This document shows positions 2,050 through 35,689 of a DNA stretch of 64,000 bases, piece by piece. Where the stretch lies: NCBI RefSeq assembly GCF_006442795.2, contig NZ_CP083956.1, forward strand, positions 3,139,501 to 3,203,500. Direction: 5' to 3'. Positions within the stretch are counted from its first letter, which is position 1. Every line of letters begins with the position of its first letter. A model generated the notes under the pieces. It had not been told where the DNA came from, made no database searches, and saw only the letters and a list, made by a program, of their open reading frames with translations. A program made the position numbers and the translations under genes. Source of the stretch: Mesorhizobium sp. B1-1-8 (GTDB taxonomy: Bacteria; Pseudomonadota; Alphaproteobacteria; Rhizobiales; Rhizobiaceae).

Positions 2050-4035
2050 TCACAGCTCCATGCCGTCGCCAGGATCGAGCGACACTTGACGCGCGACGCC
2101 CTGCATGACGCGGATCATGCGGTTATTACGCACAGCCTCATCGTCGGCTTCGTCGGACGGACCGATCTCGAACTCATTCTCGATCGGCGCTTTCTTCTCG
2201 ACCGGCTGGACTCGGTTCAACTCCGGCTGATGCCGGTGCTCGGATTCCGTCGGGTCGCCATCCCCCGCCTGTGAGGGGGTGGAAGTTTCCCCGGTCGCCG
2301 GCCGAGGCGGCAAGGGGAACGCGGTCCACTCGTCAGCGCCTCCCTGTTTCGGCGCGATCAGCGCAGGCGGGGGCAGGATGCGCTCTTGGAAGCGGGCATC
2401 CTCATAGTAACGCGCCTTCTTCGCGCGGATCGGTGGCGTGCCCGCGACCATTACGATCTCATCGGCCGGCGGGAGTTGCATGATCTCGCCTGGGGTGAGC
2501 AGCGGTCGCGCCGTTTCGGACCGCGAGACCATCAGATGGCCAAGCCAGGGCGAAAGCCGATGGCCGGCATAGTTCTTCATCGCCTTCATCTCGGTCGCGG
2601 TGCCGAGCGCATCCGAGACGCGCTTGGCGGTGCGTTCATCGTTGGTCGCGAAGCTCACCCTGACGTGGCAGTTGTCGAGGATCGAGTTGTTCGCGCCGTA
2701 AGCCTTCTCGATCTGATTGAGGGATTGCGCGATCAGGAAGCTCTTGAGGCCGTAGCCCGCCATGAAGGCCAGCGCCGACTCGAAGAAGTCCAGCCGCCCC
2801 AGCGCCGGAAACTCGTCGAGCATGAGCAGCAGCCGGTGGCGTCCGGCCTTCGCCCGCAGATCCTCGGTCAGACGACGGCCAACCTGATTGAGGATCAGTC
2901 GGATCAGCGGCTTGGTACGATTGATGTCGGAGGGCGGCACGACGAGGTAGAGCGTCGTCGGATGTTTGCTGCCGACGATATCGGTGATCCGCCAATCGCA
3001 GCGACGCGTCACCTCGGCCACGACGGGATCGCGATAAAGGCCAAGGAACGACATGGCGGTGGAGAGCACGCCGGAGCGCTCGTTGTCGGATTTGTTGAGC
3101 AGTTCGCGCGCGGCGCTGGCGATGACGGGATGCGGCCCGGCCTCGCCAAGATGCGCCGTTTTCATCATCGCGGCCAAGGTCGACTCGATCGGACGTTTCG
3201 GGTCTGAGAGGAATCCCGCGACGCCAGCGAGCGTCTTGTCCTCTTCGGCATAGAGGACATGGAGGATCGCGCCGACCAAAAGCGCGTGGCTGGTCTTTTC
3301 CCAGTGGTTCCGCTTCTCCAGCGAGCCTTCGGGATCGACCAGGATGTCGGCGATATTCTGCACGTCGCGAACTTCCCACTCGCCGCGGCGCACCTCGAGC
3401 AGAGGATTGTAGGCCGACGACTTCGCGTTGGTCGGATCGAACAGCAGCACGCGGCCATGCTTCGCGCGGAAGCCGGCGGTGAGTTGCCAATTCTCTCCCT
3501 TGATATCGTGGACGATCGCGGAGCCCGGCCAGGTGAGCAGCGAGGGGACCACGAGGCCGACACCCTTGCCCGAGCGGGTCGGGGCGAAGCACAGCACATG
3601 CTCCGGCCCGTCGTGGCGGAGATAGGCGCGGTCGTAGCGGCCGAGCACGACGCCATCGGGACCAAGAAGACCCGCGCGCTTCACTTCCTCTGTCCCGGCC
3701 CAGCGCGCCGAGCCGTAGGTCTCGACATTCTTGGCTTCACGCGCCCGCCATACCGACATGCCGATGGCGACCGCGATCGAGATGAACCCACCGGATGCCG
3801 CGATGAAGGCGCCCTCGACAAAGATCGCGGGCGCATAGGCGTCGAAGCCGTACCACCACCAGAAGAAAGAGGGTGGCAGGTAGAAGGGAAAGCCGAGTAA
3901 CGTGAACCAAGGCGCGCCAAGCCTGGGCTGGAATGCGAGGCGCCAGGCCACCCATTCCGTTGCCGTCCAGGTCGTGACGAGGACGATGGCGAAGACGGTG
4001 AGGATCTGGCCCCAGAGGATTTTCGTGCCCGACAT
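2050..4035 (-). CDS. traG: TraG/VirD4 type IV coupling protein
   Basis: A 661-aa coupling ATPase that recruits the relaxase-DNA complex to a type IV secretion channel. Two N-terminal membrane segments (about residues 10-30 and 70-95) anchor it in the inner membrane. Walker A is at 151-158 (APTRSGKG) and Walker B at 402-409 (LLLMLDEF), followed by the conserved DEFPALGR region. The C-terminal 80 residues are low-complexity and acidic, as in IncP TraG relatives. It lies 24 nt downstream of the relaxase gene. Length and motifs suggest it is intact, although no channel genes are visible in this window. Confidence 0.93.
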   Translation of the reverse strand: MSGTKILWGQILTVFAIVLVTTWTATEWVAWRLAFQPRLGAPWFTLLGFPFYLPPSFFWWWYGFDAYAPAIFVEGAFIAASGGFISIAVAIGMSVWRAREAKNVETYGSARWAGTEEVKRAGLLGPDGVVLGRYDRAYLRHDGPEHVLCFAPTRSGKGVGLVVPSLLTWPGSAIVHDIKGENWQLTAGFRAKHGRVLLFDPTNAKSSAYNPLLEVRRGEWEVRDVQNIADILVDPEGSLEKRNHWEKTSHALLVGAILHVLYAEEDKTLAGVAGFLSDPKRPIESTLAAMMKTAHLGEAGPHPVIASAARELLNKSDNERSGVLSTAMSFLGLYRDPVVAEVTRRCDWRITDIVGSKHPTTLYLVVPPSDINRTKPLIRLILNQVGRRLTEDLRAKAGRHRLLLMLDEFPALGRLDFFESALAFMAGYGLKSFLIAQSLNQIEKAYGANNSILDNCHVRVSFATNDERTAKRVSDALGTATEMKAMKNYAGHRLSPWLGHLMVSRSETARPLLTPGEIMQLPPADEIVMVAGTPPIRAKKARYYEDARFQERILPPPALIAPKQGGADEWTAFPLPPRPATGETSTPSQAGDGDPTESEHRHQPELNRVQPVEKKAPIENEFEIGPSDEADDEAVRNNRMIRVMQGVARQVSLDPGDGMEL

Positions 4036-4059: not shown

Positions 4060-5799
4060 TTAGAGGCCGAGCCCGCGCTTGCGGCCGAAGCTCCAGTCGA
4101 CGCCGCCGTCGTCGCGGGCGGCGCCGGAGACGTGCTTCCCGAGTTGTTTTTCGAGGGAGGGCGACCAGGGCACGAGCTGGAAGCCCAGGCCATCGTCCAG
4201 CATGGCGAAGCGGCCCGAGGCGAGTGTGAGACGCTCTCTGTAAGTGCCGGCGACATACTCGCCGCCGCCGGGGCGAGTGAACGGCCGGCCGGTCTCGGCG
4301 GCGAGCTTCTCGCCGACCGCTTCCAGTTCCCGACGACGCAGCGTGTCGATCAGCCCGCGGTTGAAGGTGACGCGGTGACCGTGCCGTTCGCCCCGGCCCT
4401 GTCCGACCAGATGATCGGCGCGCCGATCCATCGCTTCCCGGACCGCCGCGCCAAAGCCGCCCTCGGACAATGCGGCCGGTTCGCGGGCGATGTTTTGACG
4501 ATCGAGCCAGGTCGCGCCCGTTGCCGTGATCTGCCGATCGATATCGAGATCGGAGCGCACAGCGATCGCGACACGCCGCTGCCCCTGCGCGTCATCGAAC
4601 TTGCGCAACTCGACGATCGAGCCCGGCGCGCTGTCGCCAGCCGCATCGAGGTCGAATAACTTGATGTGGTGGGTGCGTCCGTCGACGCCATCGACCACGG
4701 CGTAGGCCGTGCCTTTCAACTCGTCGTCCAGGCCGCGATCGACCAGCCGGCCGATGATCGGCGTATCGAGGCTCTCGGCCGCAAGCACGTAGCTCGCCGA
4801 GCCGCGCTCGATGCCGCGCTCGGTCAACGCGCGGTGCATCCGTTTGATGATGTCGCCGCGCTCGCCGAGTTCCCGCAGCGCCGCCTCGGCCTTCTCGTCG
4901 ATGATCCATTGGCCGGGGCCGACCTGATCGGCGAGACCGAACGTTTCCAGCTTGCGAAGGCGTCCGACCTTCAGCGCGTGGTATTCGTCGGGCTGTTGGT
5001 CGCGAGACGGTGCGAGGTCAATGACGCCGGTCTGGCGGCCGTCGCGGACAAGCTGCCTGTCGAGCTGCGTCCAGCGCTCTGCGTCAACCTGGCGCTCCAG
5101 ACTGCGGCGGATGTCGAGATCGGTGCGCGGACCGAGTTCCTGCGTGATGAGGTCGCGCGCCCGATCGCGCATGCCTTCCTTGATGTAGTCGCGGGAAATC
5201 ACAAGATCCTGGCCGTCGTCCCGCACACCACGGACGATCAGATGGACGTGGGGATGTTCGGTATTCCAATGATCGACGGCCACCCAGTCGAGCCGGGTGC
5301 CCAGGTCCTTCTCCATCTGGCCGACGAGATCACGCATGAAGGATCTGAGGTCTGCCATTTCCAGCGCGTCGTCAGGTGAGACGATGAAGCGGAAATGGTG
5401 CCGGTCATCTTCGCAGCGCGCCGCGAAGGCGCCGGCATCCGCGGCCTGGGGCTCTGGACCAAACAGGCGCGCCTTCTCCCCGTCGCGGGTCACGCCCTCG
5501 CGACGGAGATAATTGAGATGGGTCGCCAGCGGCGCGGATCGTGAACCATGGCGCACAACGCGCGCCTTGATCACGGCGCCGCGCGAACGCGACATTATGA
5601 TCCGGTTCGCCTGGATGCTGGCACGCTGGCCCCTGCCGAAGCGGGAGCGATTGCCTGGAACGATGCGGCCGGAGCGTGAGACACCGGCACCGGCCTTTTT
5701 CGCAGCGGCCAATGCCTGGTCGATGAAGGGCCGCGCGCTCTGGGAGCCGGAGGAACGGATGCGGCCTGGCCGGATCCGAAAATCGTCCTCACCGGTCAT
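4060..5799 (-). CDS. MOBP-type relaxase/mobilisation nuclease (VirD2-like, DUF3363)
   Basis: A 579-aa relaxase. The N-terminal nuclease has HLNYLRREG (about residues 94-102; Tyr97 is the likely nucleophile) and the metal-binding HWNTEHPHVH (177-186), with the three-histidine arrangement of MOBP/VirD2 enzymes. The remaining ~350 residues form the DUF3363 C-terminal region. The frame opens at 5817, but ATG 5799 (MTGEDDFRIRPGR) has an upstream GGAG and is the likely start. The protein would cleave one strand of oriT and pilot it through the coupling protein; the candidate oriT lies directly upstream at 5858-5972, as usual for this class. Confidence 0.92.
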   Translation of the reverse strand: MTGEDDFRIRPGRIRSSGSQSARPFIDQALAAAKKAGAGVSRSGRIVPGNRSRFGRGQRASIQANRIIMSRSRGAVIKARVVRHGSRSAPLATHLNYLRREGVTRDGEKARLFGPEPQAADAGAFAARCEDDRHHFRFIVSPDDALEMADLRSFMRDLVGQMEKDLGTRLDWVAVDHWNTEHPHVHLIVRGVRDDGQDLVISRDYIKEGMRDRARDLITQELGPRTDLDIRRSLERQVDAERWTQLDRQLVRDGRQTGVIDLAPSRDQQPDEYHALKVGRLRKLETFGLADQVGPGQWIIDEKAEAALRELGERGDIIKRMHRALTERGIERGSASYVLAAESLDTPIIGRLVDRGLDDELKGTAYAVVDGVDGRTHHIKLFDLDAAGDSAPGSIVELRKFDDAQGQRRVAIAVRSDLDIDRQITATGATWLDRQNIAREPAALSEGGFGAAVREAMDRRADHLVGQGRGERHGHRVTFNRGLIDTLRRRELEAVGEKLAAETGRPFTRPGGGEYVAGTYRERLTLASGRFAMLDDGLGFQLVPWSPSLEKQLGKHVSGAARDDGGVDWSFGRKRGLGL

Positions 5800-5857
5800 G
5801 GCCGATGCTCCGCACATCGCGCCAAGTACCGGAAACTTAAGAGAAATGGGTCTCGCT

Positions 5858-6820: not shown

Positions 6821-7168
6821 TCAATCCTTCTCGCCGCGATCGCGCGGGCGCGACCAGTGCAGCGACCAGGCGTTGCCGGCATCGTCGTCGCGGAACAGGT
6901 TGGCGCGAATCGGATGCGGGAACGCCGGATCGTCGATCTGCAGCGCGACGTATTCGCCGGCCTTCTCGCCGGTGCGTTTCCAGCCGGCGCCGATCTCCGG
7001 GCCTGTTTCGTTGCTCATGCCGTCGAAGAGGTGAACGCGATAATCTGGTGCGTTCTCCGCGTCGGACGGTTCTGCCAGGACGATGATGATGTCCTGATGC
7101 AGTAAGAGCGTTGCGAGGTTTCCGATGAAGCTGGCCTCCTCGCGCCTGAACTCACCAATTTGCGGCAT
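6821..7168 (-). CDS. DUF736 protein, copy 1
   Basis: A 115-aa soluble protein of the DUF736 family: MPQIGEFRREEASFIGNL at the N-terminus, LFRDDDAGNAWSLHWSRP near the C-terminus. DUF736 proteins are near-universal in alphaproteobacterial conjugative elements; their function is unknown, with single-stranded DNA handling often suspected. The frame extends to 7693 without a good start; ATG 7168 follows a GGAGAC ribosome binding site and restores the normal family length. A second, divergent copy lies at 11622-11948. Confidence 0.9.
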   Translation of the reverse strand: MPQIGEFRREEASFIGNLATLLLHQDIIIVLAEPSDAENAPDYRVHLFDGMSNETGPEIGAGWKRTGEKAGEYVALQIDDPAFPHPIRANLFRDDDAGNAWSLHWSRPRDRGEKD

Positions 7169-8616: not shown

Positions 8617-9504
8617 TCACAGCTTATCCCCAAAGCGCGTTGATGATCTCCGTCTCGGGCGCGGCGGGGTGAGAAAGGTCGGAACGGTGGCGACGAAGGA
8701 GAGGACGTCGGGTCCGCCGGGCTGGTGTTCGATGGTCAGCCGGTAGCCGGGAAGCGGTTGGCGCTTAACGATCTCCCGCAGGTCGTAGGCGAAGTGCTTG
8801 AGCGGCGAGAGGCTGCCGGACTTCTGGTGCAGATGGCCGAAGTCGAAGCTCCAGCCGAAGGACTGGCGGCCGCCGTGCTTGCGCACGATGCGGTAGAGCC
8901 AGCGTTCGAGACCGCCCGTCAGATCGAAATACGCCCGGTCGATCGTGAGCACGAGTGCATCGTCGAGCACGGCGCGGTAGAACCAGTCCGGCAGGATCAG
9001 CTCGACGCCGACGGGGCGGCCAGCGCGATCGGTACGCTCGTGCCATTCGTTGATCCAGGAGAAGCGGTGACGGCGGCCTTCCGCCGGCTGGCGGATCGAT
9101 GTCGCGACGGTGGTGGATTGGAGCCGGTCGAGCGCCGCCTTGAGGCGCAGGTAGTCGCGTATAGACACGCCGCGGCCGACGTAGGTGAGAATCTCGTAAG
9201 GTGTCGTCGCCATCAGGCGCGAGGTGCGCAAGCCCGCGTCGCGGGCATTGACGATCTGGCTCGCGGCCCAGATCAGGATGTCGGCATCCCAGATCGTCGC
9301 CATGCCATGATCCGGCACGGCTTCGACGCGGATGGTGACGTCGCCGGCCTTGAAATCGATCGGGGCGACGCGTTTGGACTTTGCGAGTGAGAAGAACGGA
9401 TAGGCCATGAGATCCTGCGCGTCGCGAGGCGCGAACTCGCCGGGAAGCGCATGAAATAAATCGAGTTGCGCGCGTTCCGAGGGTGGGTAGGAGCGTGCCG
9501 ACAA
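8617..9504 (-). CDS. repA: RepA-family replication initiator
   Basis: A 295-aa protein of the replication initiator protein A family found in alphaproteobacterial plasmids and integrative elements. The N-terminal winged-helix region (DLMAYPFFSLAKSKR... to about residue 130) and the second domain with DRAYFDLTGGLERWLYRIVRKHGG (about 190-215) are typical. It would let the excised circle replicate, using the adjacent iterons at 8547-8610 as binding sites. parA, which normally follows repA here, is absent. The HTH gene at 9523 lies 18 nt upstream and probably shares its transcript. Confidence 0.9.
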   Translation of the reverse strand: MSARSYPPSERAQLDLFHALPGEFAPRDAQDLMAYPFFSLAKSKRVAPIDFKAGDVTIRVEAVPDHGMATIWDADILIWAASQIVNARDAGLRTSRLMATTPYEILTYVGRGVSIRDYLRLKAALDRLQSTTVATSIRQPAEGRRHRFSWINEWHERTDRAGRPVGVELILPDWFYRAVLDDALVLTIDRAYFDLTGGLERWLYRIVRKHGGRQSFGWSFDFGHLHQKSGSLSPLKHFAYDLREIVKRQPLPGYRLTIEHQPGGPDVLSFVATVPTFLTPPRPRRRSSTRFGDKL

Positions 9505-11621: not shown

Positions 11622-11948
11622 TCAGTCGCCCCGGCGACCGTTGGGCCGGGACCAGATCAGAGAGAAGGTGTCGGCATCCTCGTCATCGAAGAGGTTGGCG
11701 TAGATCGGGGCGTTGAAGCTTGGATCGTCGAGCTTGAGGCCCAGGTAGTCGCGGCCTTCGCCGGAGCGCTTCGACCAGGCGGCGCCAATCTCGGCGCGGC
11801 CGACCAGAACGCGGTGGCTGGGGGCGTTCTCGCCGGTTGCGCGCAGGTCGGGGACGATGCGCACCCCCTTGGCCTGGACGCTGAGGGTGACGATGTCGCC
11901 GGTGAACTCGTTCGTGCCGGTTTTCTTGAAGGTGCCGATGGTGGCCAT
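11622..11948 (-). CDS. DUF736 protein, copy 2
   Basis: A 108-aa DUF736 protein (MATIGTFKKTGTNEFTGDIVTLSVQAKGVRIVPD..., LFDDEDADTFSLIWSRP at the C-terminus). This copy is closer to the family consensus than the copy at 6821-7168. The frame is open far upstream, but ATG 11948 gives the family length. It has an unusually long 5' leader holding a structured element (12072-12159), and lies apart from the transfer operon. Function unknown, possibly DNA binding. Confidence 0.92.
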   Translation of the reverse strand: MATIGTFKKTGTNEFTGDIVTLSVQAKGVRIVPDLRATGENAPSHRVLVGRAEIGAAWSKRSGEGRDYLGLKLDDPSFNAPIYANLFDDEDADTFSLIWSRPNGRRGD

Positions 11949-12050
11949 GGTAAGTCTCCGTTTTTCCGTTCTCGAGCCCGCACCATGCGGCCTCGATGGC
12001 GATCGGTTGGACGGAGGCGACCGACGACGCATCGCTCGCGACCGAAGCAA

Positions 12051-12159
12051 AGCGGAGGATGGCGCGGATGAGACTTTCTTGGTTCGCGAGGAATGACGGC
12101 AAAACCGGGGTCCCCGCGCGACTTGTCGCGCGGGGTGGTTTCGGCAGGGGAAGAAAGTC
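12051..12159 (-). promoter_or_regulatory. Structured leader element, copy A (upstream of DUF736)
   Basis: An outer 9-bp inverted repeat (12072-12080/12151-12159, GACTTTCTT/AAGAAAGTC) encloses a perfect 11-bp hairpin (12112-12122/12125-12135, 2-nt loop). The spacer between outer arm and hairpin is 31 nt. Copy B at 15085-15182 has the same layout, the same 31-nt spacer length and conserved unpaired sequence (GGTTCGCGA, CCGGGGT), but different bases in both stems that keep pairing. AGCGGAGGATGGC (12051-12063) beside the outer arm is also shared. It ends 124 nt before the DUF736 start. An RNA element in the 5' leader is the best reading; a protein-binding DNA palindrome is the alternative. Confidence 0.7.
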
Positions 12160-12179
12160 GGGACGCGCCGTTGCGGCAT

Positions 12180-12564
12180 AGGCGGTCGAGGCGTCAGCCG
12201 CCCTTCGGCTAGATCAGCCCATTAAAGAGGCCGTTTGGAGCGCTCGCCGGACGAATTTGAAACGAAGAGGCTGGCCACCGACGCGCCTCACAAGACCGAC
12301 ATGCACTCGACCGGCGCTCCACCCTCTCTTCTCGGGCCACGCCTGCGCATGACCATCATCGGCTTGGCAACGGCAGAAATGTCGCTCCGCCATTCATCGT
12401 TCAGTGCCGCAGCCACGACATCGCCGCCCGAGCTGAAGGCCCGACAGGTCGCCTGCGTGGGTTCGTTGCGATGATGCGAAGCACAAGGCCAGAGCCCCGA
12501 CGTCGGATGCCGTGGTCTGCGAGAGCAACGTCGCGCTGGTTCCGTACCAGTTCGTCGGCCCCGC
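12180..12564. other. Intergenic, nothing recognised
   Basis: About 385 nt between the leader of DUF736 and the end of the membrane-protein gene. Open frames here have no family resemblance or good starts. The 5' end of the DUF736 transcript probably lies in its lower part. Confidence 0.45.
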
Positions 12565-13005
12565 CTAAGCCCGGACTATGCCACGTCCGGTTTGGTCGGC
12601 GGCCGTCATGCCTGCCACGCGGACAAATGCCGTGACGCCCACGGCCACCGCGCCGACGACAGAAAAGACAATCTGCCATGTCGCCGATGGCATGGCGTGT
12701 TTCACTATGCCATGGGTTGCATGGTAGCCGGCGATAGCAGCGGGCGCGACGAACACCAGCGCGATCGCCAGTCTCGCCCACAGCGGGCGAACGACGTTGA
12801 GCAGAAGCTGACCAAGGCCGAGTGTCAGTCCAGCGGCGAGAGCGCCGACAACGATTGCGCCGAGCCAGCCAGCGCCTACGTTGAATGCCCACATACCTGT
12901 GCTGACGCCCGAAAAGAATGGAAGCGCGAAGATGGCGAGCGTGAAGAGTAGCCAGCAGAAAAAGCCGATGGCGATGATGCTGAGAAGTATGCCGAGAACG
13001 ATCAT
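12565..13005 (-). CDS. Four-helix inner-membrane protein, hypothetical
   Basis: A 146-aa protein starting MIVLGILLSIIAIGFFCWLLFTLAIFALPFF, with about four hydrophobic segments (roughly residues 2-32, 42-70, 78-97, 105-130). ATG 13005 is chosen because GGAGACACCGCC precedes it and the upstream frame is not protein-like. I recognise no named family; similar small membrane proteins occur in this region of rhizobial elements. It might be an entry-exclusion or immunity-type protein, which is speculation. Confidence 0.7.
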   Translation of the reverse strand: MIVLGILLSIIAIGFFCWLLFTLAIFALPFFSGVSTGMWAFNVGAGWLGAIVVGALAAGLTLGLGQLLLNVVRPLWARLAIALVFVAPAAIAGYHATHGIVKHAMPSATWQIVFSVVGAVAVGVTAFVRVAGMTAADQTGRGIVRA

Positions 13006-13147
13006 GGCGGTGTCTCCGAGAGAAATGCTCTGACGGTTGCGCCTTCCACCACCACCGCGGCGCGAAGCAGAGCATAGCAAAAGTTGAATCGTGGCGGGAG
13101 CGAAAACCGACAAGGTTTCCGCGTCGCCCGACAGGATCTTCGCCCCG

Positions 13148-13315
13148 TCATGGGGCGAAGGGATCGATTTCGCCGACGATCTCGGCGGCGTCGCCGTCGT
13201 ATTCGTTGGCGGGTATGACCGAGAGCGTGCCGTCGCCCGCGCGAAAGATGACGATGGCGACCATCAGGGTGGCGGCGAGGCTGAAGGCGAAGGCATGTGC
13301 GTCGGAAAGGGACAT
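13148..13315 (-). CDS. Small single-span membrane protein of the element core
   Basis: A 55-aa protein, MSLSDAHAFAFSLAATLMVA..., with one transmembrane helix (about residues 8-27) and an acidic C-terminal tail (EYDGDAAEIVGEIDPFAP). Similar short proteins recur in alphaproteobacterial integrative elements, as far as I recall. Start 13315 is preferred over the upstream ATG at 13390 because protein-like sequence begins here. Function unknown. Confidence 0.6.
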   Translation of the reverse strand: MSLSDAHAFAFSLAATLMVAIVIFRAGDGTLSVIPANEYDGDAAEIVGEIDPFAP

Positions 13316-13548
13316 CGATCCGGCTCCTGTTTGAAGCGGAGGACCATCCCCCGCTGACAGGCGCCCGATGTGTTCGGCCGAGGGCCGCAATCACCGCGCA
13401 GGCGAAGCCGCAGCGGCGGCACGCTTTGCGTAGTCCGACCCCTTGCGGGTTGATGGCGTCAGGCCATCGGCTGGACCAAGGATCAGCGACGAGAAGTGGG
13501 GGTGGTGTTCAGCTTAAGAGGCAGCCGGGCTGTCGATACGGCAAACTG

Positions 13549-13971
13549 CTATGCCACGAGCTTCGCAAGCGCGGTGACAACTTCGCCGACGTCGGCTGCA
13601 AATCCCCCCGGCCATCGTCGTGCTACATCACGCTGGAAGCCGCCGCGCTGAAAATGAGGGTGAAGGAGGGAGATTACGCACTGCAGGTCTGGCGGGAGAG
13701 TTAGACCGGCCTTGGCGGCGTAGCGCGCTGCCTTGTCGAGATCATGCCGTATGTGCGTCCGATTCCAATTATCATCGGTGACGGTGCGAAGCAGGTAAGA
13801 CTTGAGCAGCGATTCAATGGCGATGGCAGACTGATGCAAGGCGACATTGTCGGCGCCATTTTCAACCGCCCAATTTGCGCCCTCCATGCTGCCGGTGGCA
13901 GTTCGAAGAAAAGTCTCGGAAAGCGCGACGTCGAGAACGACAGTGTCAGGGAACGAAGCAAGCCGCAACAT
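13549..13971 (-). CDS. HEPN-like protein
   Basis: A 140-aa protein with features of the HEPN domain: a helix rich in small residues (NVALHQSAIAIESLLKSYLLRTV, about residues 42-64) followed by HIRHDLDKAARYAAKAGL (about 73-90). This fits the 'HEPN domain of nucleotidyltransferase or minimal toxin' pattern. The classic RX4-6H ribonuclease motif is not clear. It is located between the small membrane proteins and DUF2493. If HEPN, it may be an RNase-type toxin or a nucleotidyltransferase partner; no nucleotidyltransferase is adjacent. Confidence 0.5.
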   Translation of the reverse strand: MLRLASFPDTVVLDVALSETFLRTATGSMEGANWAVENGADNVALHQSAIAIESLLKSYLLRTVTDDNWNRTHIRHDLDKAARYAAKAGLTLPPDLQCVISLLHPHFQRGGFQRDVARRWPGGFAADVGEVVTALAKLVA

Positions 13972-14037
13972 GATGCGAAGATATGCTTCACGTCGTGGAC
14001 CGTCAAAATATCGCCAGGCGATGAGATGGGGCGGCGC

Positions 14038-14964
14038 TTACGCGCCGCCGCTTCCGAAGCGATAGACCGGAATGCCGAGCTTGCGGGCCTTGTCGGCAAG
14101 ATTGTCCTGAATGCCGGTGCCCGGGAAGACGATGACCCCGATCGGCATGATCGCCAGCATCTGGTCATTGCGCTTGAAGGGTGCCGCCTTGGCATGTTTC
14201 GTCCAGTCGGGCTTGAAGGCGACCTGCGGCACCTTGCGGTGATCAGCCCAGCGGGCTGCGATCTTTTCGGCGCCTTTCGGCGATCCGCCGTGCATGAGCA
14301 CCATGTCGGGGTGCTTGATATGGATTTGATCGAGCTTCACCCAGATGAGCTTGTGATCGGTGGTGTCACCGCCCGAGAAGGCGATCTTCGGCCCGGCGGG
14401 CAACATGACCTCGGTCTCTGCGCGCCGTTTTGCGGCGAGAAAGTCGCGGCTGTCGATCATCGCGGAGGTGAGGTTGCGATGGTTGACCATCGACCCGGTA
14501 CGCGGGCGCCAGCTTGATCCGGTCTGCCGTTCGAAGTGATCGGCGGCCTGGTCGCGCATCAGCTCGAACGCGTTGCGGCGTTCGATCAAGGTCTGCCCTT
14601 CGGCGGTCAAGCGCTCCAGTTCGACCGATTTCACCTCGCTGCCGTCCTGTTCGCGTTGGCTGCGGCGCTGTCCTTGCTCGTTGTCGTCCAGCTCGCGCTC
14701 GATGCGGTCGGTGGCGCGGTGAAAGAGATTGACGGTCGACCAAAGCAGGTCGTCGAGGTCGGGTTCGAGCCGTGTGTCCTGCATGGTCGAGATCAGGGCG
14801 TCGAAGATATCGGCGATGGCGCCGGCCACGCGGTCGCCCTCAGGGAGTGGGCGGGGGTCGGGTTCATCCTCGAAGGGACGAAAGCCGTAAAGTTGAAGTT
14901 CCTGCAGGAGGTGGTCGGTCGGGGATGTGTTGTGGTGTGGCTCGAAGTCGTCGTGCTCGCTCAT
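14038..14964 (-). CDS. DUF2493 (YspA/cpYpsA-related SLOG) protein
   Basis: A 308-aa protein with an N-terminal acidic/helical region (about 1-180) and a C-terminal SLOG-type Rossmann domain (DUF2493) from about residue 205: HIKHPDMVLMHGGSPKGAEKIAARWADHRKVPQVAFKPDW, then MPIGVIVFPGTGIQDNLADKARKLGIPVYRFG. SLOG domains bind nucleotide-derived ligands. It is a standard core gene of these elements, function unknown. The start is ATG 14964 (MSEHDDFE), preceded by GATGGAGC; the frame is open to 15021. Its leader contains structured element copy B. Confidence 0.88.
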   Translation of the reverse strand: MSEHDDFEPHHNTSPTDHLLQELQLYGFRPFEDEPDPRPLPEGDRVAGAIADIFDALISTMQDTRLEPDLDDLLWSTVNLFHRATDRIERELDDNEQGQRRSQREQDGSEVKSVELERLTAEGQTLIERRNAFELMRDQAADHFERQTGSSWRPRTGSMVNHRNLTSAMIDSRDFLAAKRRAETEVMLPAGPKIAFSGGDTTDHKLIWVKLDQIHIKHPDMVLMHGGSPKGAEKIAARWADHRKVPQVAFKPDWTKHAKAAPFKRNDQMLAIMPIGVIVFPGTGIQDNLADKARKLGIPVYRFGSGGA

Positions 14965-15068
14965 GGGATGCTCCATCGGTTGGACCGCGACCGTCGCGGC
15001 CTTCATGGCGACGAAGCCCATGGGCGGATCGGCCTTGCACCCGGAGCGCAGCGCCGGGCCGGAGCGTC

Positions 15069-15182
15069 AGCGGAGGATGGCAGAGGCCGGCTATTTTGGT
15101 TCGCGATGGAAAGGCGCGGCACCGGGGTCCCCACGCGGCCTGCCGCGTGGGGTGGAGATGCGCCGCCGGAAAATAGCCGGCC
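15069..15182 (-). promoter_or_regulatory. Structured leader element, copy B (upstream of DUF2493)
   Basis: An outer 13-bp inverted repeat (15085-15097/15170-15182, GGCCGGCTATTTT and its complement) encloses a perfect 11-bp hairpin (15129-15139/15142-15152, 2-nt loop), with a 31-nt spacer as in copy A at 12072-12159. Relative to copy A the hairpin has G-C to A-T and A-T to G-C changes at paired positions, and the outer stem is entirely different yet still perfect. The unpaired stretches and the flanking AGCGGAGGATGGC (15069-15081) are conserved. It ends 121 nt before the DUF2493 start. Confidence 0.7.
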
Positions 15183-15316
15183 GCCGCCATTGCCGGGCCG
15201 GCCCGGCTATGGGCCGATCGCCCTCTCGAAGGCCGAGGCGCGGTTCTCTCCGACGGTCAGATGCATCCGCACGGGCACGATGACGATGCACCGCACCACG
15301 CCGTCCTCGTCCAGGG

Positions 15317-16351
15317 CTATGCCGCCAGCGCCATGAAACGGGCGACGTCCTGGGGTGCGAGTTGGCTCCTCACGTTCGCCGTCAGCGCATTGAGCCCGCG
15401 GGTTCGCAGATCCTCGTTGAAATCCCCGAGCATCGGCGAGAGCACGGTCGCGTCGATCCCGACCGCGTTCGCCCGTTCGATCAGGCTATCCCGCGCGCCG
15501 TCCCCGGCCGGATCATTGTCGCGGACGATATAGAGCCTGCGCAGCGCGCCCGGGAACAGAATGGCAGCGAGATGTGCGGCTGAGAGTGCTGCCGCCATGG
15601 CCATGTCGGGCAGACTCTGCTTGAGCGAGAGCACCGTTTCGATGCCTTCGCCCGCCGCCATGACCTCGCCGGCGTTCCCGAAGCGAACCGCGTTTCCGAG
15701 GAGATCGCCCATCGCCTTGCGTTGCGTAGCAATCGGCGCCTTGTCGGAGCCGTCCGGTGCGAGCCAGGTGCGATGCGCGCCGGTGATCCTGCCGCCGAGG
15801 TCGGTGACACCAGCGATCATGGCTGGCCAGGTCTCGGTCGGAGAGTGCTCGTCAGGCCGATAGTAGCAGCGCGGATGAAAGTGGAGATGTCCGGTTCCGC
15901 GCAAATCCGTAATGCCGCGTTCCCGCAGATACGTTTGTACGATCGTGCCTAAAATCGGCTGCGACACGGCGACGAGGCGCCGTGCTGCTTCGGGTGAGCC
16001 CTGTGGTGCGGGACTGCGCTGTTCGTCCACGCGCGGCTCTGGCTCAGGTGGCGTGCTGAGAAAGAGGCGTGCCTCGTCGGCGACGTCCTTGAAGCCGATG
16101 AGGCCGCAGCTCTCCCGGATGATGTCGAGAAGATCGCCGTGCTCACCGGTGGCGGCGTCGGTCCATTTGCCCGCCGGGCCTTTTGGTGAATCCTTCAGCC
16201 GCACGAACATCGAGCGGCCGGGCGTATTGCGAGCATCGCCAACCTGCCAATAGTTGCCCTGGCGATGACCGGCGCCGAGGTAGCGCCGGCAGACCGCCTC
16301 GGCCTGCCGGCCGAGACGTGTTGCGAGATCCGAAGCGTCGTGACCTGCCAT
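15317..16351 (-). CDS. Toprim-domain protein (TraC-like primase, DUF7146-type)
   Basis: A 344-aa protein. The N-terminal half has the zinc-finger-less primase-like region (GNYWQVGDARNTPGRSMFVRL, TGEHGDLLDIIRE). The C-terminal Toprim domain has the catalytic Glu in GEGIETVLSL (about residue 233) and the metal-binding DND in LYIVRDNDPAGDGAR (about 275). Such proteins are thought to prime DNA synthesis on transferred or replicating element DNA. The start codon overlaps the stop of the helicase gene by one base (TAATG), so translation is likely coupled. Confidence 0.85.
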   Translation of the reverse strand: MAGHDASDLATRLGRQAEAVCRRYLGAGHRQGNYWQVGDARNTPGRSMFVRLKDSPKGPAGKWTDAATGEHGDLLDIIRESCGLIGFKDVADEARLFLSTPPEPEPRVDEQRSPAPQGSPEAARRLVAVSQPILGTIVQTYLRERGITDLRGTGHLHFHPRCYYRPDEHSPTETWPAMIAGVTDLGGRITGAHRTWLAPDGSDKAPIATQRKAMGDLLGNAVRFGNAGEVMAAGEGIETVLSLKQSLPDMAMAAALSAAHLAAILFPGALRRLYIVRDNDPAGDGARDSLIERANAVGIDATVLSPMLGDFNEDLRTRGLNALTANVRSQLAPQDVARFMALAA

Positions 16352-19300
16352 TACGCCGCCTCCCGCTCAGAGATGCGCACGATCGGATAGGTATCGAGCA
16401 GCTTTCCGATGATCGCCGGCCCAGACGCATCGACCGGTACGAAGAAGCGCAGCTTCCATGAGATGATCTCCGTGAAGAGACCATAGGCGCACAGGCGGTC
16501 GCGCGTCGCTTCGGTGAAACCGGAGAGTTCGATCCGGTTCGCGCCCATGACGCGGACACGGCGGAGCTGGAGCCCATCGGCGAGATCCAGAATGGTGCGT
16601 CCCTCGATCAATGCCGCATACGCATCGTCGGCCCCGAGGCTGGTCGTGCCGGTGGAGGCGGCGTTCGCGGCCCAGGCCGGAGACACGCGTCGGCCGATGA
16701 TGCGTTCGCCGCCATCGGTCTGGAGGCGGTAGACGCGGGTCGACTCGTTCGGCAGGCGCTTCCAGACCGGCAGGAGAAGGCCGGCGACGATGTGGATAGT
16801 GCTGTCGGTGAAGGTCGGAACCTCATCGAGTTCACGGGACCACGCCGCATTGAACGCGTCGGGGTGAGCTTCCTGCCAATGGCTTTCCGCTATCATCTTC
16901 AACGAGGCATGATGATGCTCCATCGGCCGGATCAGCCGGACGCGGCGCTCGATCTCGCCGTCGTCAAGCATCAGCGATGGTGCTGGAACCTGCACGGCGG
17001 CGCGGCCCGAGCGCTCGTTCACGAGCAGCTTGCCGTGGCCGTCGTCCAGCGACCGCAACGCGGTGTCCAGCGACATCGGACGATTGCGCTCGCGCTGGGA
17101 GATGGTGAGAAGGCGCGTCTCGGCGCCTGTCGCCGGATGGGTGTAGATCGTCCTGCGATCCGTGACCGTGAAGCTCTCGGCCGTCAGCGTTTCCAGACCG
17201 ATATCATAGATGCCGCTGGCGATCGCTCCCGCCACTTTGGCGTCGAGCAATTGCTCGAAGGCGGTGAAGAGGACGCCCTGAAGCTCGATGGTGAGCGCCA
17301 GCAGCCGATTGAGGAAGGTGGTGATCGGCGGCAGCTCGTCCTTGATGCCATTGTCATCCATCAGCTTCAGGCCGGTGGCGGACTCGAAACGGTCAAGCGA
17401 GCACCCCTCGATCTTGCCGCGCACGAGCAGGAGATAGAGCTGGCGCAAGGCATCGCGGGCGTAGGCCGACTCCAGATTATCCTCCGGCCGGAACAGGCCC
17501 TGGCCGCCGGTCTGACGCTGCCCGCGTGTGATCGCGCCGAGCGTGTCGAGCCGCCGGGCGATTGTGGAGAGGAAACGCTTCTCCGCCTTCACGTCGGTGG
17601 CAATCGGCCGGAAGAGCGGCGGCTGCGCCTGGTTGGTGCGATTGGTGCGGCCGAGCCCCTGAATGGCCGCATCGGCCTTCCAGCCCGGTTCAAGCAGATA
17701 GTGGACGCGCAGGCGCTGGTTCTTCGCTGACAGCTCGGCATGGTAGCTCCGGCCGGTGCCGCCAGCGTCCGAGAAGACGAGGATGCGCTTCTGGTCATCC
17801 ATGAAGGCGGATGTCTCGGCCAGATTGGCGGATGGCGCGCGGTTCTCCACCGCCAGGCGATCGCCCATGGTGTCGGCACACGACTTGCGGACGATGCGCC
17901 GCGAGCGGCCGGTCACTTCCGCTACCGTATCGGTGCCAAAGCGCTGGACGATCTGGTCGAGTGCGCCGGGGACGGGCGGCAGCGAGGCCAGACGCTCGAT
18001 CAGTTCGTCACGACGCGCGACGGCTTCGCGGCTCTCGACCGGTTGCCCATCCCGATAGACTAGCCGTGACGACAGATTGCCCTCGCTGTCGGTGAAAGGC
18101 TCGTAGAGCTGCACCGGGAAGGAATGGGCGAGATAGTCGAGGACATATTCGCGCGGCGTGATGTCGACACGAACGTCATTCCACTCCTCGGTCGGGATTT
18201 CCGCCAGGCGTCGCTCCATCAGGGCCTCGCCCGTCGAGACGATCTGGATGACGGCGGCATGGCCGCTTTCCAGATCGTGCTCGATGGAGCGGATCAGGGT
18301 CGGCGTCTTCATGCTGGTGAGGAGGTGGCCGAAGAAGCGCTGCTTGGCGCTCTCGAAGGCCGAACGCGCAGCGGACTTCGCCTGCCGGTTCAAGGTGCCG
18401 CTGTGGCCGGTGATGTTGGCGGCCTGCATGGCGGCATCAAGATGATTGTGGATGATCGCGAACGCCCCGGCATAGGCGTCGTAGATGCGGCGCTGCTCAT
18501 CGGTGAGCCGGTGTTCGACCAGTTCGTATTCCACGCCGTCGTAGGAGAGCGACCGCGCCATGTAGAGGCCGAGTGATCGGAGGTCGCGGGCCAGTACCTC
18601 CATGGCCGCAACGCCGCCATCCTCGATCGCCTCGACGAATTCCGCGCGCGTGGCGAAGGGGAAATCCTCACAGCCCCACAGGCCGAGCCGCTGGGCATAG
18701 GCGAGATTGTGAACCGTGGTGGCGCCGGTGGCGGAGACATAGACGACGCGGGCATTCGGCAGGGCGTGCTGAAGGCGAAGCCCGGCGCGCCCCTGCTGTG
18801 AGGCGGCGACATCACCGCGTTCTCCCTTGCCGCCTGCTGCGTTCTGCATCGCGTGGCTCTCGTCGAAAATGATCACTCCGTCGAAATCGGAGCCCAACCA
18901 TTCGACGATCTGGCGGACGCGCGAAACCTTCTCGCCACGGTCGTCGGAGCGTAGCGTGGCATAGGTCGTAAATAGGACGCCTTCCGACAGGGAGATGGTC
19001 TTGCCCTGCGGGAAGCGCGACAGCGGTGTTACCAGGAGGCGCTCCATGCCGAGCGCGGACCAGTCGCGCTGCGCATCCTCGATCAGCTTGTCGGACTTGG
19101 AGATCCAGACCGCTTTGCGGCGGCCGCGCAACCAGTTGTCCAGGATGATGCCGGCCGACTGACGGCCCTTGCCGGCGCCGGTGCCGTCGCCGAGCATGAA
19201 GCCACGCCGGAACCGGACGGCGCCACCGGCGTCGGCAGGAGCGGCTTTGACCAGATCGAAGGTCTCGTCGACCGACCACGATCCGGCGAGATAATCGCTG

Positions 19301-20673
19301 TGGGCCTCGCCGGCGTAGATCACCGTCTCGATCTGCGCGTCCGACAACAGGTACAGAATGTTCTTCGGCAGCATCGGGCGATAGCTCGGCTTCGGCGGCG
19401 CAACGCTCGCCATGGCGGCCGACTGCACCAGCTGGGTCGGGTGAGCCTGAGAGCCGGGAATGCGGATCGACTGCAATCCGTATTCTTCGTAGATCGCATC
19501 GGTGAGACGGATGCTTTCGGGCGATGTCCAGTCCACGGTCTCGTAGGCGAGTTCTACGCCTTCGGGATCGACTTCTACGGCATCGACGGGCCGTGCCGCT
19601 GCCGAGCGCGACAGATATCCGCGCACGGTCTTCGGCGCCGGCGTCTGGAGCCTCGACGTGACTACGGGCTGCGTGACGGGCAGGCGCGGCGGGACCATCG
19701 CCTCGATCCAGCCGAGCAGCGTCGCGACGTCGGGGGCCATCCCTGGCGAGGGGGGAAAATCGGTGGGATTGGCGGCCGGACGCTTGTCGATGACCGTCAG
19801 CCGCGTCGGGAATGTCGTGCCATGCTTGGCATAGACCGAGCCGGCGATGGTGGCGGAGAAGACGATTATGCCGCGTTCCTGCAGGCGAATGAACGCTTCG
19901 CACCAGTCCGGCAGGTCCGGCCCGACATTGGCGCCGGTGATCGCGACCAGCCGTCCGCCCGGCGCCAGACGATTCAATGCCGAGGCGAGATGGCGCATGC
20001 CGGCGTCTGTGACGCGGCCCGCGATGTTCGCCATTGCCGAGAATGGCGGGTTCATCAACACGACGGACGGCACAGCGCTGATGTCGAGATGATCGTCGAT
20101 CTGCGCCGCGTCGAAGCGGGTGACGGGCAGGGTGGGGAGGAGGGACGACAGCAGGTCGGCACGGGTGTCGGCCAGTTCGTTGAGGATCAGAGAGCTGCCG
20201 ACCGTCGCCGCGAGAATGGCCAGAAGGCCGGTGCCGGCAGACGGCTCCAACACGCGGTCGCTCGCCGTGATGGCCGCCGCCGCCAGTGCCGCGAGCCCCA
20301 AGGGAAGCGGGGTCGAGAATTGTTGCAGCGCCTGCGACTCCTCCGACCGGCGAGTATGGGTCGGCAGCAGCGCGACGAGCTTCGCAAGCACAGCCAGCCG
20401 TGCGGCCGGAGACGCGGCCTTACGGAAAAGCGCCTTTCCATATTTACGCAAGAAGAGGACCGTTGCGACCTCGCAGGCCTCGTAGGCGGCCTTCCAATCC
20501 CAGACGCCGGCGCTATCGGAGGCACCGAAGGCGGTCTCCATCGCGGCGCGCAGAGTGGACAGATCGATACGCTCGCCACGTTCGAGATGACCGAGCAGGC
20601 CGTCAGCGGCGCAGAGAATGGCGGGCGCGACGGTGACGGGCGCGGCCGGGGCGGGGGGCAACAGGATGGTCAT
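16351..20673 (-). CDS. Methyltransferase/strawberry-notch-like helicase fusion
   Basis: A 1440-aa protein. An N-terminal methyltransferase-like domain (about residues 120-310) has EPSAGTGLLAILAA and the adenine/glutamine-methyltransferase signature VLMNPPF. A superfamily-2 ATPase follows: Walker A in GDGTGAGKGRQS (about 500), DESH box in VIIFDESHAM (about 610), and the helicase C-terminal part DKRILVFSDAGGTGRSYHA...GLGRTNRTNQ (about 990-1060). This architecture is a core gene of alphaproteobacterial integrative elements. Start 20673 (MTILLPP) is preceded by GAGGATCTC. A role in modification or restriction-evasion on transfer is an inference. Confidence 0.88.
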   Translation of the reverse strand: MTILLPPAPAAPVTVAPAILCAADGLLGHLERGERIDLSTLRAAMETAFGASDSAGVWDWKAAYEACEVATVLFLRKYGKALFRKAASPAARLAVLAKLVALLPTHTRRSEESQALQQFSTPLPLGLAALAAAAITASDRVLEPSAGTGLLAILAATVGSSLILNELADTRADLLSSLLPTLPVTRFDAAQIDDHLDISAVPSVVLMNPPFSAMANIAGRVTDAGMRHLASALNRLAPGGRLVAITGANVGPDLPDWCEAFIRLQERGIIVFSATIAGSVYAKHGTTFPTRLTVIDKRPAANPTDFPPSPGMAPDVATLLGWIEAMVPPRLPVTQPVVTSRLQTPAPKTVRGYLSRSAAARPVDAVEVDPEGVELAYETVDWTSPESIRLTDAIYEEYGLQSIRIPGSQAHPTQLVQSAAMASVAPPKPSYRPMLPKNILYLLSDAQIETVIYAGEAHSDYLAGSWSVDETFDLVKAAPADAGGAVRFRRGFMLGDGTGAGKGRQSAGIILDNWLRGRRKAVWISKSDKLIEDAQRDWSALGMERLLVTPLSRFPQGKTISLSEGVLFTTYATLRSDDRGEKVSRVRQIVEWLGSDFDGVIIFDESHAMQNAAGGKGERGDVAASQQGRAGLRLQHALPNARVVYVSATGATTVHNLAYAQRLGLWGCEDFPFATRAEFVEAIEDGGVAAMEVLARDLRSLGLYMARSLSYDGVEYELVEHRLTDEQRRIYDAYAGAFAIIHNHLDAAMQAANITGHSGTLNRQAKSAARSAFESAKQRFFGHLLTSMKTPTLIRSIEHDLESGHAAVIQIVSTGEALMERRLAEIPTEEWNDVRVDITPREYVLDYLAHSFPVQLYEPFTDSEGNLSSRLVYRDGQPVESREAVARRDELIERLASLPPVPGALDQIVQRFGTDTVAEVTGRSRRIVRKSCADTMGDRLAVENRAPSANLAETSAFMDDQKRILVFSDAGGTGRSYHAELSAKNQRLRVHYLLEPGWKADAAIQGLGRTNRTNQAQPPLFRPIATDVKAEKRFLSTIARRLDTLGAITRGQRQTGGQGLFRPEDNLESAYARDALRQLYLLLVRGKIEGCSLDRFESATGLKLMDDNGIKDELPPITTFLNRLLALTIELQGVLFTAFEQLLDAKVAGAIASGIYDIGLETLTAESFTVTDRRTIYTHPATGAETRLLTISQRERNRPMSLDTALRSLDDGHGKLLVNERSGRAAVQVPAPSLMLDDGEIERRVRLIRPMEHHHASLKMIAESHWQEAHPDAFNAAWSRELDEVPTFTDSTIHIVAGLLLPVWKRLPNESTRVYRLQTDGGERIIGRRVSPAWAANAASTGTTSLGADDAYAALIEGRTILDLADGLQLRRVRVMGANRIELSGFTEATRDRLCAYGLFTEIISWKLRFFVPVDASGPAIIGKLLDTYPIVRISEREAA

Positions 20674-20697
20674 CGGGAGATCCTCGGGAGAGCGGGA

Positions 20698-20770
20698 ACG
20701 GACGAGCCGGCCGGCGCTCTCTCTCGAACCGCCCGGACTCATCCGTCCCGGCGGGCCTCTTCCTCTCAAG
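20698..20770 (-). promoter_or_regulatory. Leader of the helicase gene, divergent copy of the parB/DUF932 leader
   Basis: ACGGACGAG (20698-20706) and CTCATCCGT (20738-20746) form a 9-bp stem with one G-T wobble, enclosing the CTCTCTCTCGA motif (20717-20727) shared with the leaders of parB and DUF932. On the sense strand an in-frame ATG at 20742 could add MSPGGSRES... to the helicase, echoing the SRER peptide of the other two leaders. The element ends about 25 nt before the chosen start. Confidence 0.45.
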
Positions 20771-20847
20771 GGCCGACACAAAAAAAGCGCCCCGCCGAAC
20801 GGCAGGGCGCGGAGTGCGCGACGGGCGGGCCGCCTCGTGTCACCGTT

Positions 20848-33200: not shown

Positions 33201-33502
33201 GCGCGCTTCTTGCCGAGCGAGAGCAGCCGGCAGAGCCGAGAATAGGCAGGACGATCGGTCGGATAGACCAGTACCGACAATCCATCGGTTAGATCGAGCC
33301 GACACCCGACGACCAGGCGCGCGCCCGTCGCTTTCGCCGCCTCGCGGGCGCGCACGATGCCGGCGAGCGAATTGCGATCGACCACGGCGAGCGCCTCGAT
33401 GCCGAGGCGTGCGGCTTGCGCAAACAGTTCCTCGGCCGAGGACGCGCCACGCAGGAAGCTGTAATGGCTCGTCACTTGAAGCTCGGCATAGCGCGGGATC
33501 AT
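30236..33502 (-). CDS. dnaE2: Error-prone DNA polymerase DnaE2 (ImuC)
   Basis: A 1088-aa C-family polymerase. The PHP domain opens with [22 protein letters not shown]. The palm carries [14 protein letters not shown] (about 345) and [13 protein letters not shown] (about 385), with the catalytic acidic residues. The OB fold is at the C-terminus ([15 protein letters not shown]). DnaE2 lacks replicative fidelity features and carries out damage-induced mutagenesis together with ImuA and ImuB. ATG 33502 overlaps the ImuB stop by 4 nt. It is the last gene of an SOS cassette; carrying this cassette on an element suggests a mutator or damage-tolerance benefit. Confidence 0.95.
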
Positions 33503-35022: not shown

Positions 35023-35689
35023 CGCAAGCCTCCAACTCGAAATCAGCACTCTCGCCCGCGCGTGCGCGGATCAACTCAACAAGCCAGCGGTGTCGACCGA
35101 CGCCAGGCACGGGCAGCGGCTCCGAAGGAAGCGCGGATACGCGCCAGCGCGTCATCGCTGCGGTCGGCTGCCCGAAGTCCGCTGCTTCCGTGTGTCGTCG
35201 CCAGCGCCGCAATGCGATCGCAATAGAGCCCGTTCCCTCGGCGGAAAGCTGAAGCCGGCGTGAGGCAGTCATCGACAGGCGCGCGACTTCTGCAACGACG
35301 GCGCCGAGGCCGCCGTGACGCAGCCCTTCCTCCATACAGGCGAGCACCGTCCTATCGTCGCCTGCCTCCAGGTAGATCACTCGGTCAGAGGTCAGGCCGG
35401 CCTGAGCAAGTGCCGGCGCGAAAAGATCGGGCCGCGTGATGCACCAGAGGGTTTTGCCGGTGGTGCGTGCGGCTATACCGGCCGCGAATAATGCTGCGGC
35501 TGCACCATCAACTGCACCGTTGCCACCACCAGCGATTTCATGAAGAGCACCGCGTGCGAGGCCACCGCCCGGGAGCCGCGAGTCTACCTCGGCTATCCCA
35601 AAGGGGAGAACCGATTTCGCGCGCCGGCTTCTGCCTTCGATCTTTTCGATCTGCGTGCGCAAAGACTCTATGGCGGGCCCGGGCCGCAA
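34937..35689 (-). CDS. imuA: ImuA, RecA/SulA-like mutagenesis protein
   Basis: A 250-aa protein of the ImuA family: ESLRTQIEKIEG near the N-terminus, then FGIAEVDSRLPGGGLARGALHEIAGGGNGAVDGAAAALFAAGIA, which resembles the RecA core with a degenerate Walker A. It is the first gene of imuA-imuB-dnaE2. The start is uncertain: TTG 35689 is 12 nt from an AAGGAGG and no in-frame ATG exists upstream before a stop. A perfect LexA box begins 37 nt upstream (35727-35741), so the operon should be induced by DNA damage. Confidence 0.88.
   Translation of the reverse strand: MRPGPAIESLRTQIEKIEGRSRRAKSVLPFGIAEVDSRLPGGGLARGALHEIAGGGNGAVDGAAAALFAAGIAARTTGKTLWCITRPDLFAPALAQAGLTSDRVIYLEAGDDRTVLACMEEGLRHGGLGAVVAEVARLSMTASRRLQLSAEGTGSIAIALRRWRRHTEAADFGQPTAAMTRWRVSALPSEPLPVPGVGRHRWLVELIRARAGESADFELEACDDTGRLALPADLVHRPAAAEGWRRGASA

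Follow-up and report, generated by a model that had tools for sequence, protein, structure and literature searches.

Introduction

Early expression of genes from incoming single-stranded DNA (ssDNA) has been shown for enterobacterial plasmids, and expression from the transferred strand is described in the same reports (PMC9849209, PMC11541004); in the published pattern, transcription from that strand runs toward the origin of transfer (oriT; PMC11541004). On plasmid F, the near-identical elements Frpo1 and Frpo2, approx. 5 kb apart, drive the leading genes (PMC9849209). Alignment of these two elements over 548 columns shows 90% identity; each is a repeated block upstream of leading genes. Single-strand origins (sso) of rolling-circle plasmids are ssDNA hairpins that start second-strand synthesis, and such origins have reportedly been found on the integrative element ICEBs1 too. 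Here we describe two copies, A and B, of a structured block upstream of a DUF736 and a DUF2493 gene in a 64,000-nt stretch of the Mesorhizobium sp. B1-1-8 genome (contig NZ_CP083956.1, positions 3,139,501–3,203,500; hereafter the window, numbered from its first letter). We give about even chances to the reading that this block is an ssDNA promoter of the leading region, i.e. of that stretch of a conjugative element which arrives in the recipient before the rest and as ssDNA. On this reading the block, Frpo-like in function, might also serve to prime second-strand synthesis.

The likeness to Frpo1 and Frpo2 of F, and to ssi and ssi3 of ColIb-P9, would consist in a long imperfect leading-region hairpin present in two copies a few kb apart, placed upstream of leading genes that are read toward oriT with the transferred strand as template. 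The block differs in being tied to DUF736 and DUF2493 genes, where Frpo is tied to ssb and psiB, and in its occurrence in integrative and conjugative elements (ICEs) and plasmids of Alphaproteobacteria. A covariance model of the block built from 61 relatives, none of them from the window (R1), gave no match at E ≤ 5 in 18 kb of the leading region of F (NC_002483, 50000–68000), and we see no sequence kinship to Frpo. As neither of two defining features of Frpo, sequence similarity and −35/−10 boxes, was found when tested, the block is likened to Frpo by its predicted function and is not a member of that family. Its likeness to single-strand origins is one of description only, and it differs from them in being placed before particular genes. 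With the structured RNA leaders of Rfam it has in common that covarying stems with conserved loops precede genes; it differs in the wobble pattern of its core, which is the opposite of that expected from a sense RNA.

Two copies of a conserved upstream block

Sequence comparison shows A and B to be the same conserved upstream block of approx. 270 nt, present twice. The initial annotation of this DNA had proposed a common plan for A (12072–12159) and B (15085–15182), with an outer stem enclosing two spacers and an inner hairpin. Re-reading of the sequence bore out this plan, including the lengths of the outer stem (9 bp in A, 13 bp in B), the 31-nt spacer common to both copies, the other spacer of 15 nt (A) or 17 nt (B), and the compensatory swaps at two paired positions of the inner hairpin. 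The pairing drawn for that hairpin, 11 bp with a 2-nt loop, is formed in the letters, but it folds instead as 10 bp with a 4-nt loop. The distance to the start of the element genes, put at 121–124 nt, is 123 nt for A (DUF736) and 120 nt for B (DUF2493/YAcAr), close to the earlier values without matching them exactly. As the DUF736 and DUF2493 genes are both on the minus strand, the sense reading of A and B is minus.

The plan had left out an outermost stem (P0) and a small hairpin (P2), both part of the real core, and had taken as the element proper the 11-bp inner hairpin, which proved to be an optional insert absent from most relatives. Of the parts that had been described as conserved, the flank AGCGGAGGATGGC is indeed so and holds the 3′ arm of P0, whereas CCGGGGT is part of the insert. 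Compared with dinucleotide shuffles, both copies fold with lower energy whichever strand is taken (z −2.3 to −4.2). R1 recovered both, B with 87.7 bits (E 2.3e-18) and A with 59.7 bits (E 7.5e-12); no other match in the window was better than E 0.47.

P0, P1 and P2 together form the stem of the core, whose internal loop hardly varies (in sense letters, 5′ half TTCC, 3′ half TCGCGARNCAA). P0 pairs A[CT]NNN with NNN[AG]T and, under a loose rule, is formed in 63/63 cores of A type and in 81/86 of B type. P1 (7–13 bp) has TT/AA at its loop end and free sequence beyond, as in the arms CTATTTT/AAAATAG, CGATTTT/AAAATCG and CTAATTT/AAATTAG. P2 is a short hairpin, also of free sequence, with Watson-Crick pairs in 437 of 485 cells (75 variants). 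Adjoining it, an isolated pair X/Y in B-type cores (n = 86) is GC in 45, CG in 30 and TA in 11, no other type being seen. Window copy A, which the regular expression parsed wrongly, is left out of the censuses of P0, P2 and the X/Y pair, and likewise of the mismatch and wobble counts for P0, P1 and P2, the cluster counts and the fold-energy comparisons below.

The initial annotation had proposed a covariance model and a search for covarying homologues as a check, and this check was passed. Among the 61 sequences, 86.6% of the cells of the structure are paired against 70.1% in shuffles, 163 cells are changed on both sides against 69.5, and the covariation score is 0.361 against 0.130, a value reached in 0 of 500 shuffles; the count of pair types (25 against 22.6) is not significant (54/500). 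Shifting the partner by 1–3 columns lowers pairing to 40–55%. It should be noted that these statistics are strong but not formal, as the shuffles leave the relatedness of the sequences in place.

Conservation extends well beyond the core. Column identity in A-type leaders (n = 22) is 0.81–0.86 from −233 to the start codon, 0.69 from −293 to −233 and 0.44–0.49 further upstream; in B-type leaders (n = 43) it is 0.72–0.85, compared with 0.55 for the gap that follows the toprim gene. In both types it is unbroken from about −270 to the start codon. A second hairpin near the ribosome site, H4, also covaries (GGCCGCG/CGCGGCC, GATCGCG/CGCGATC, GGTCGCG/CGCGACC). No family of Rfam 15 passed its gathering threshold anywhere in the window; when 11900–15400 was scanned permissively, the one match was of chance level and lay elsewhere. 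A coding explanation of the conservation was rejected: reading frames shift between the copies and among relatives.

Distribution and gene association

Of 151 genomes from the window's family, 66 have the core by R1 (E ≤ 0.001), among them that of the window, with six places; this amounts to 65/142 good-quality genomes and 55/109 genera. An exact-pattern survey, which found it in 1 of 297 genomes (the window's own), was discarded as far too strict. Blastn against a plasmid collection found 116 records with A-like DNA and 55 with B-like DNA, the organisms listed being mainly of rhizobial and other alphaproteobacterial genera. A genome scan with the DUF2493 protein gave at least 80 loci, in Hyphomicrobiales, Sphingomonadales, Caulobacterales, Paracoccus and Acetobacteraceae among others, and the core stands upstream of the DUF2493 gene in 78 of the 80 listed by regular expression and in the other two by eye. 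Beyond Alphaproteobacteria, R1 matches lie upstream of DUF736 genes on the Polaromonas plasmid pPNAP01 (L188; 37.3 bits, E 2.3e-6) and the Pseudomonas aeruginosa plasmid pPUV-11 (L187; 30.5 bits, E 8.6e-5), the only beta- and gammaproteobacterial plasmids examined. In both, the element lies at ~2310–2397 and has a C.C mismatch at the same place in P1, seen also in 13/63 A-type cores.

The regions examined represent 60 of 115 clusters, single copies being preferred. The 86 copies examined are 82 of 86 R1 matches together with four insert loci; dropped were three rows of L165, which repeat L123, and a weak reverse match in L128. The next gene encodes DUF736 in 59 and DUF2493 in 20 of these copies (79/86) and is another or a broken gene in seven; the start codon lies 75–138 nt from the copy (252 nt in one case). 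Conversely, 150 of 158 regions upstream of DUF736 and DUF2493 genes, from loci and plasmids together, have the core by regular expression. The other eight are two second DUF736 copies without the leader, one chance match, L011, in which the core holds an insertion and is found by R1, and L028, L005, L034 and L042, in which a core with a small change can be recognised by eye.

Two of the seven remaining copies precede a protein of 57–60 residues, and weaker matches on p42a and pRL8 (E 7.8e-4 and 6.7e-3) precede small hypothetical genes; a third type of regulated gene is possible. Cores, in part weak matches, stand before small hypothetical proteins of 57–66 residues at L123:1577, L179:1500, L189:16784 and L167:6315. 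In the open-licence literature of PubMed Central (preprints and supplements not included), we found no description of the block; nor did we find there an open-licence paper that pairs DUF736 with DUF2493 or Frpo with Rhizobium.

Strand preference of the stems

In 98 distinct variants of P1 with 931 interior cells, read in sense letters, 869 cells are Watson-Crick, 22 are A.C, 3 are G.T and 37 are other mismatches. An A.C on the sense strand is a G.T on the antisense strand, and the tolerated mismatch is thus a wobble on the latter. Grouping the leaders by similarity outside the core preserves the imbalance (A.C against G.T, 32 against 6 in 81 clusters and 23 against 5 in 43 clusters). H4 shows the reverse, with 26 G.T against 4 A.C in 50 variants, and 33 against 3 and 24 against 3 by clusters. 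The contrast between P1 and H4 has a Fisher p of 2e-8, the cells not being independent. In our reading, selection appears to act on the antisense strand for the core, and on the sense strand for H4.

Orientation toward the relaxase and the transferred strand

The family survey comprises 150 copies, i.e. 148 places among the matches listed and the two of the window. Sixty-one of them lie within 60 kb of a DUF3363 relaxase gene (38 genes; median distance 11.0 kb), and in 61/61 the relaxase is downstream and on the same strand, places of DUF3363 relaxases on contigs without the element being partly left out of this count. Taken alone, this agreement is weak, because the genes of these elements mostly share one orientation. 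MobA/TraA-type relaxases were searched in 46 of the 66 genomes, and 27 of 30 cases agree with a relaxase downstream on the same strand; the exceptions are one 55 kb away on the same strand and two divergent copies 11–14 kb away. On pRL8, pXAUT01 and p42a, the DUF736 gene faces oriT across a convergent traCDG, with the block on the far side of traCDG.

For this relaxase class we used the nick motif of the RSF1010 and Ti systems, with the rule that the transferred strand starts at the nick and runs away from the inverted repeat. A nick-like motif with an adjacent inverted repeat was found in 25 pairs of element and motif (21 loci), and in 23/25 it lies downstream on the antisense strand. Together with the polarity rule, this makes the template strand of the driven genes the probable transferred strand. 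From the places of relaxase and nick-like motif we infer that the block stands on the leading side and that the template strand is transferred.

A proposed single-stranded DNA promoter and its alternatives

If the block is an ssDNA promoter, A and B would mark the leading region, and the hairpin P0-P1-P2 would act on the transferred strand, presumably the template strand of the driven genes. Once inside the recipient, this strand would fold into the hairpin and offer a start site for RNA polymerase, or possibly for a primase; DUF736 and DUF2493 would be made before the element becomes double-stranded, and H4, then within the resulting mRNA, might tune its translation. The sequences themselves show structure, conservation, gene association and an orientation common to two transfer systems. 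The strand signature of P1, this orientation and the nick-like motifs favour the promoter reading, as do a layout resembling that of F and neighbours of a leading-region type (antirestriction-like zincin, ParB, toprim and SOS-response genes). More tentatively, and with some doubt, we suggest that the block represents a new class of ssDNA promoter, lacking sigma-70 boxes, unrelated to Frpo in sequence, common to conjugative plasmids and ICEs of Alpha-, Beta- and Gammaproteobacteria and firing DUF736 and DUF2493 genes upon DNA entry.

Several results weigh against the promoter reading. P2 is neutral as to strand (8 G.T, 7 A.C), P0 leans only weakly to the antisense strand (15 A.C, 8 G.T), and the P1 signal comes mainly from stem positions 7–8, where A-T, G-C and A.C occur but never G.T. 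Raw fold energy is lower on the antisense strand in 63/63 A cores and 74/86 B cores; corrected by shuffles, however, the sense/antisense scores show no strand preference (z −2.1/−2.0 for A, −2.6/−2.7 for B), the advantage is one of composition, and free energy was therefore rejected as strand evidence. No oriT was located in the DUF3363 elements, the window's own kind, and at the two divergent copies, the same two that are exceptions to the relaxase orientation, the motif points the other way, so that the coding strand would be transferred. The near-exclusive tie to DUF736 and DUF2493 genes fits gene-specific control better than a general early promoter. Finally, the best sigma-70 match (−35/−10 boxes) scores on average 7.1 of 12 over 142 leaders, and shuffles reach 7.4. 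The same linear scan gives only 8 (Frpo2) and 7 (Frpo1) of 12 on F, and is therefore insensitive; boxes formed across the arms could be missed. Promoter and terminator scans of the window found none, and the promoter scan is uninformative because shuffles also give about 0 promoters.

Because of this tight tie to two gene families, the main rival, which we regard as unlikely, is a structured RNA on the sense strand: a 5′ leader of approx. 270 nt that controls translation or termination of DUF736 and DUF2493, e.g. by binding an element protein, autogenous control by DUF736 being one option. The initial annotation had pointed the same way, with a structured RNA that was perhaps a cis-regulator. 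Its two homologous, covarying elements ahead of core genes are real, and H4 carries the wobble signature of a sense RNA hairpin; P1 speaks against a simple sense-strand RNA core, as its 3 G.U against 22 A.C is the opposite of what a folded sense RNA would give. Strong covariation with conserved loops, the sense orientation at a set distance from the start codon, the continuity of conservation up to that codon, and the position of 79/86 copies before just two gene families, as expected of gene-specific regulators, are all consistent with such a leader. It leaves the orientation to oriT unexplained, and no promoter-like site was seen upstream of the block, though all tests for one were weak.

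An ssDNA initiation or landing site other than a promoter, at which a primase or another protein would start the complementary strand or load, is improbable in our view. It draws on the same evidence of strand and orientation as the ssDNA promoter, and on the single-strand origins reported for an integrative element. The acting protein might be a toprim protein of the element itself, whose gene adjoins B: in the window, as in several relatives, this gene has its end shortly before B. Such a site has no need for the set distance to particular genes, nor for a conserved tract up to the start codon.

Least probable is a double-stranded site in vegetative cells, a cruciform (the alternative of the initial annotation) or a repressor-bound palindromic operator, for which the palindromic insert with the stems and the HTH (helix-turn-helix), DUF2285 and RovC-like regulators nearby in the element could speak, but which gives no reason for the strand bias of mismatches in P1 and does not account for a constraint spanning approx. 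270 nt. The free variation of stem letters with pairing kept is also unlike an operator read in the duplex.

The optional palindromic insert

The insert CCACCCC..GGGGACCCCGG is, from its places of occurrence, an optional module of this leader; under the ssDNA promoter reading it may be an extra piece for recognition or stability within hairpin loops. It occurs 21 times in the 151 family genomes, 12 times within an R1 match and five times 20–23 nt downstream of one, i.e. in the next hairpin loop. The remaining four lie in diverged upstream regions that, judged by eye, have the same plan; R1 detects one of these (L172, E 6.5e-4) but, at E ≤ 5, not the other three. A search of 2.28 Mb of retrieved sequence showed a similar pattern 15 times, 13 in the P2 loop (one by eye) and two in the next hairpin loop. 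The inner hairpin was rejected as the core: the form resembling repetitive extragenic palindromes (REP) is present in only 14/148 extracted cores (one regular expression) and also in another loop. A genome-wide REP element was rejected as well, every occurrence seen being in such leaders; the insert shares with REP-type palindromes a GC-rich palindrome with conserved flanks and differs in being tied to leaders and not scattered.

The palindrome CCACCCC..GGGGACCCCG (window 12105–12138 and 15122–15155; L006, L124, L169–L186) was seen only in hairpin loops of these leaders (21/21 in the 151 genomes, four judged by eye). In L172 and L178, approx. 100 nt before the palindrome, a diverged core with other loop letters (TTACCCC .. 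CTCCTCTCCCACTAA) stands before DUF736 genes. This core may be a separate subclass, mostly missed by R1.

Features and neighbourhood of A and B

A and B are 3 kb apart on the minus strand, between the strawberry-notch and toprim genes on one side and replication, relaxase and coupling genes on the other (Table 1).

Table 1. Positions of the two blocks, their parts and neighbouring genes in the window.
Feature	Position	Strand	Basis and remarks
Copy A, entire conserved block (about −270 up to the start of DUF736)	11949..12218	−	Conservation profile; limits approximate
Copy A, structured core (P0, P1, internal loop, P2 with insert)	12052..12178	−	R1 match
A, P0 5′ arm ACGGC	12167..12171	−	Sequence and P0 pairing across relatives; partner 12059–12063 GCCAT, one A.C mismatch
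A, P0 3′ arm GCCAT	12059..12063	−	Sequence; within the flank first noted as conserved
A, P1 5′ arm GACTTTCTT	12151..12159	−	Sequence and P1 covariation; partner 12072–12080
A, P1 3′ arm AAGAAAGTC	12072..12080	−	Sequence
A, conserved internal loop, 3′ side TCCTCGCGAACC	12081..12092	−	Sequence; nearly invariant in alignment
A, optional palindromic insert CCACCCC..GGGGACCCCGG, in P2 loop	12105..12138	−	Sequence; most relatives without it
A, hairpin H4, shortly before the Shine-Dalgarno sequence	11974..11994	−	Sequence; H4 census
DUF736 gene downstream of A, start 11948	11622..11948	−	PF05284, E 2.5e-32
Copy B, entire conserved block (about −270 up to the start of DUF2493)	14965..15235	−	Conservation profile; limits approximate
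Copy B, structured core	15070..15197	−	R1 match
B, P0 5′ arm ATGGC	15186..15190	−	Sequence; partner 15077–15081
B, P0 3′ arm GCCAT	15077..15081	−	Sequence
B, P1 5′ arm GGCCGGCTATTTT	15170..15182	−	Sequence; partner 15085–15097
B, P1 3′ arm AAAATAGCCGGCC	15085..15097	−	Sequence
B, conserved internal loop, 3′ side CCATCGCGAACC	15098..15109	−	Sequence
B, optional palindromic insert, in P2 loop	15122..15155	−	Sequence
B, hairpin H4 GGCCGCGACGGTCGCGGTC	14983..15001	−	Sequence; H4 census
DUF2493 (YspA/YAcAr, SLOG) gene downstream of B, start 14964	14038..14964	−	PF10686, E 2.2e-28
DUF3363 relaxase gene, downstream of A and B	4060..5817	−	PF11843, E 1.6e-90; places both on the presumed leading side
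Strawberry-notch gene	16351–20781
Toprim gene	15317–16351
RepA gene	8617–9504
TraG-like gene	2050–4035

A second DUF736 gene (6821–7168), adjoining a traF-like peptidase gene, is without such a block; DUF736 genes are described on all Mesorhizobium ICEs compared, where they are often duplicated (PMC8627217). The structure model of the DUF736 protein downstream of A is all-beta, with eight strands and no helix (predicted local distance difference test score, pLDDT, 88), and no protein of solved structure is related to it in sequence at E ≤ 1.

In the presumed leading direction, the window also holds genes for a DnaE2-type polymerase and an ImuB-like protein (30236–35689), with which the umu-like genes reported beside anti-defence islands may be compared (PMC11541004). 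A protein of the SMODS (CD-NTase) type, possibly a defence gene product, is encoded on the plus strand at 35655–36980.

Implications

If the block is an ssDNA promoter, the strategy of early expression from ssDNA would extend to large conjugative elements of Alphaproteobacteria, and the unexplained genes for DUF736 and DUF2493 would encode establishment factors. Even as an RNA leader, the block would be a strongly covarying element, unmatched here by Rfam 15, and tied to two gene families.

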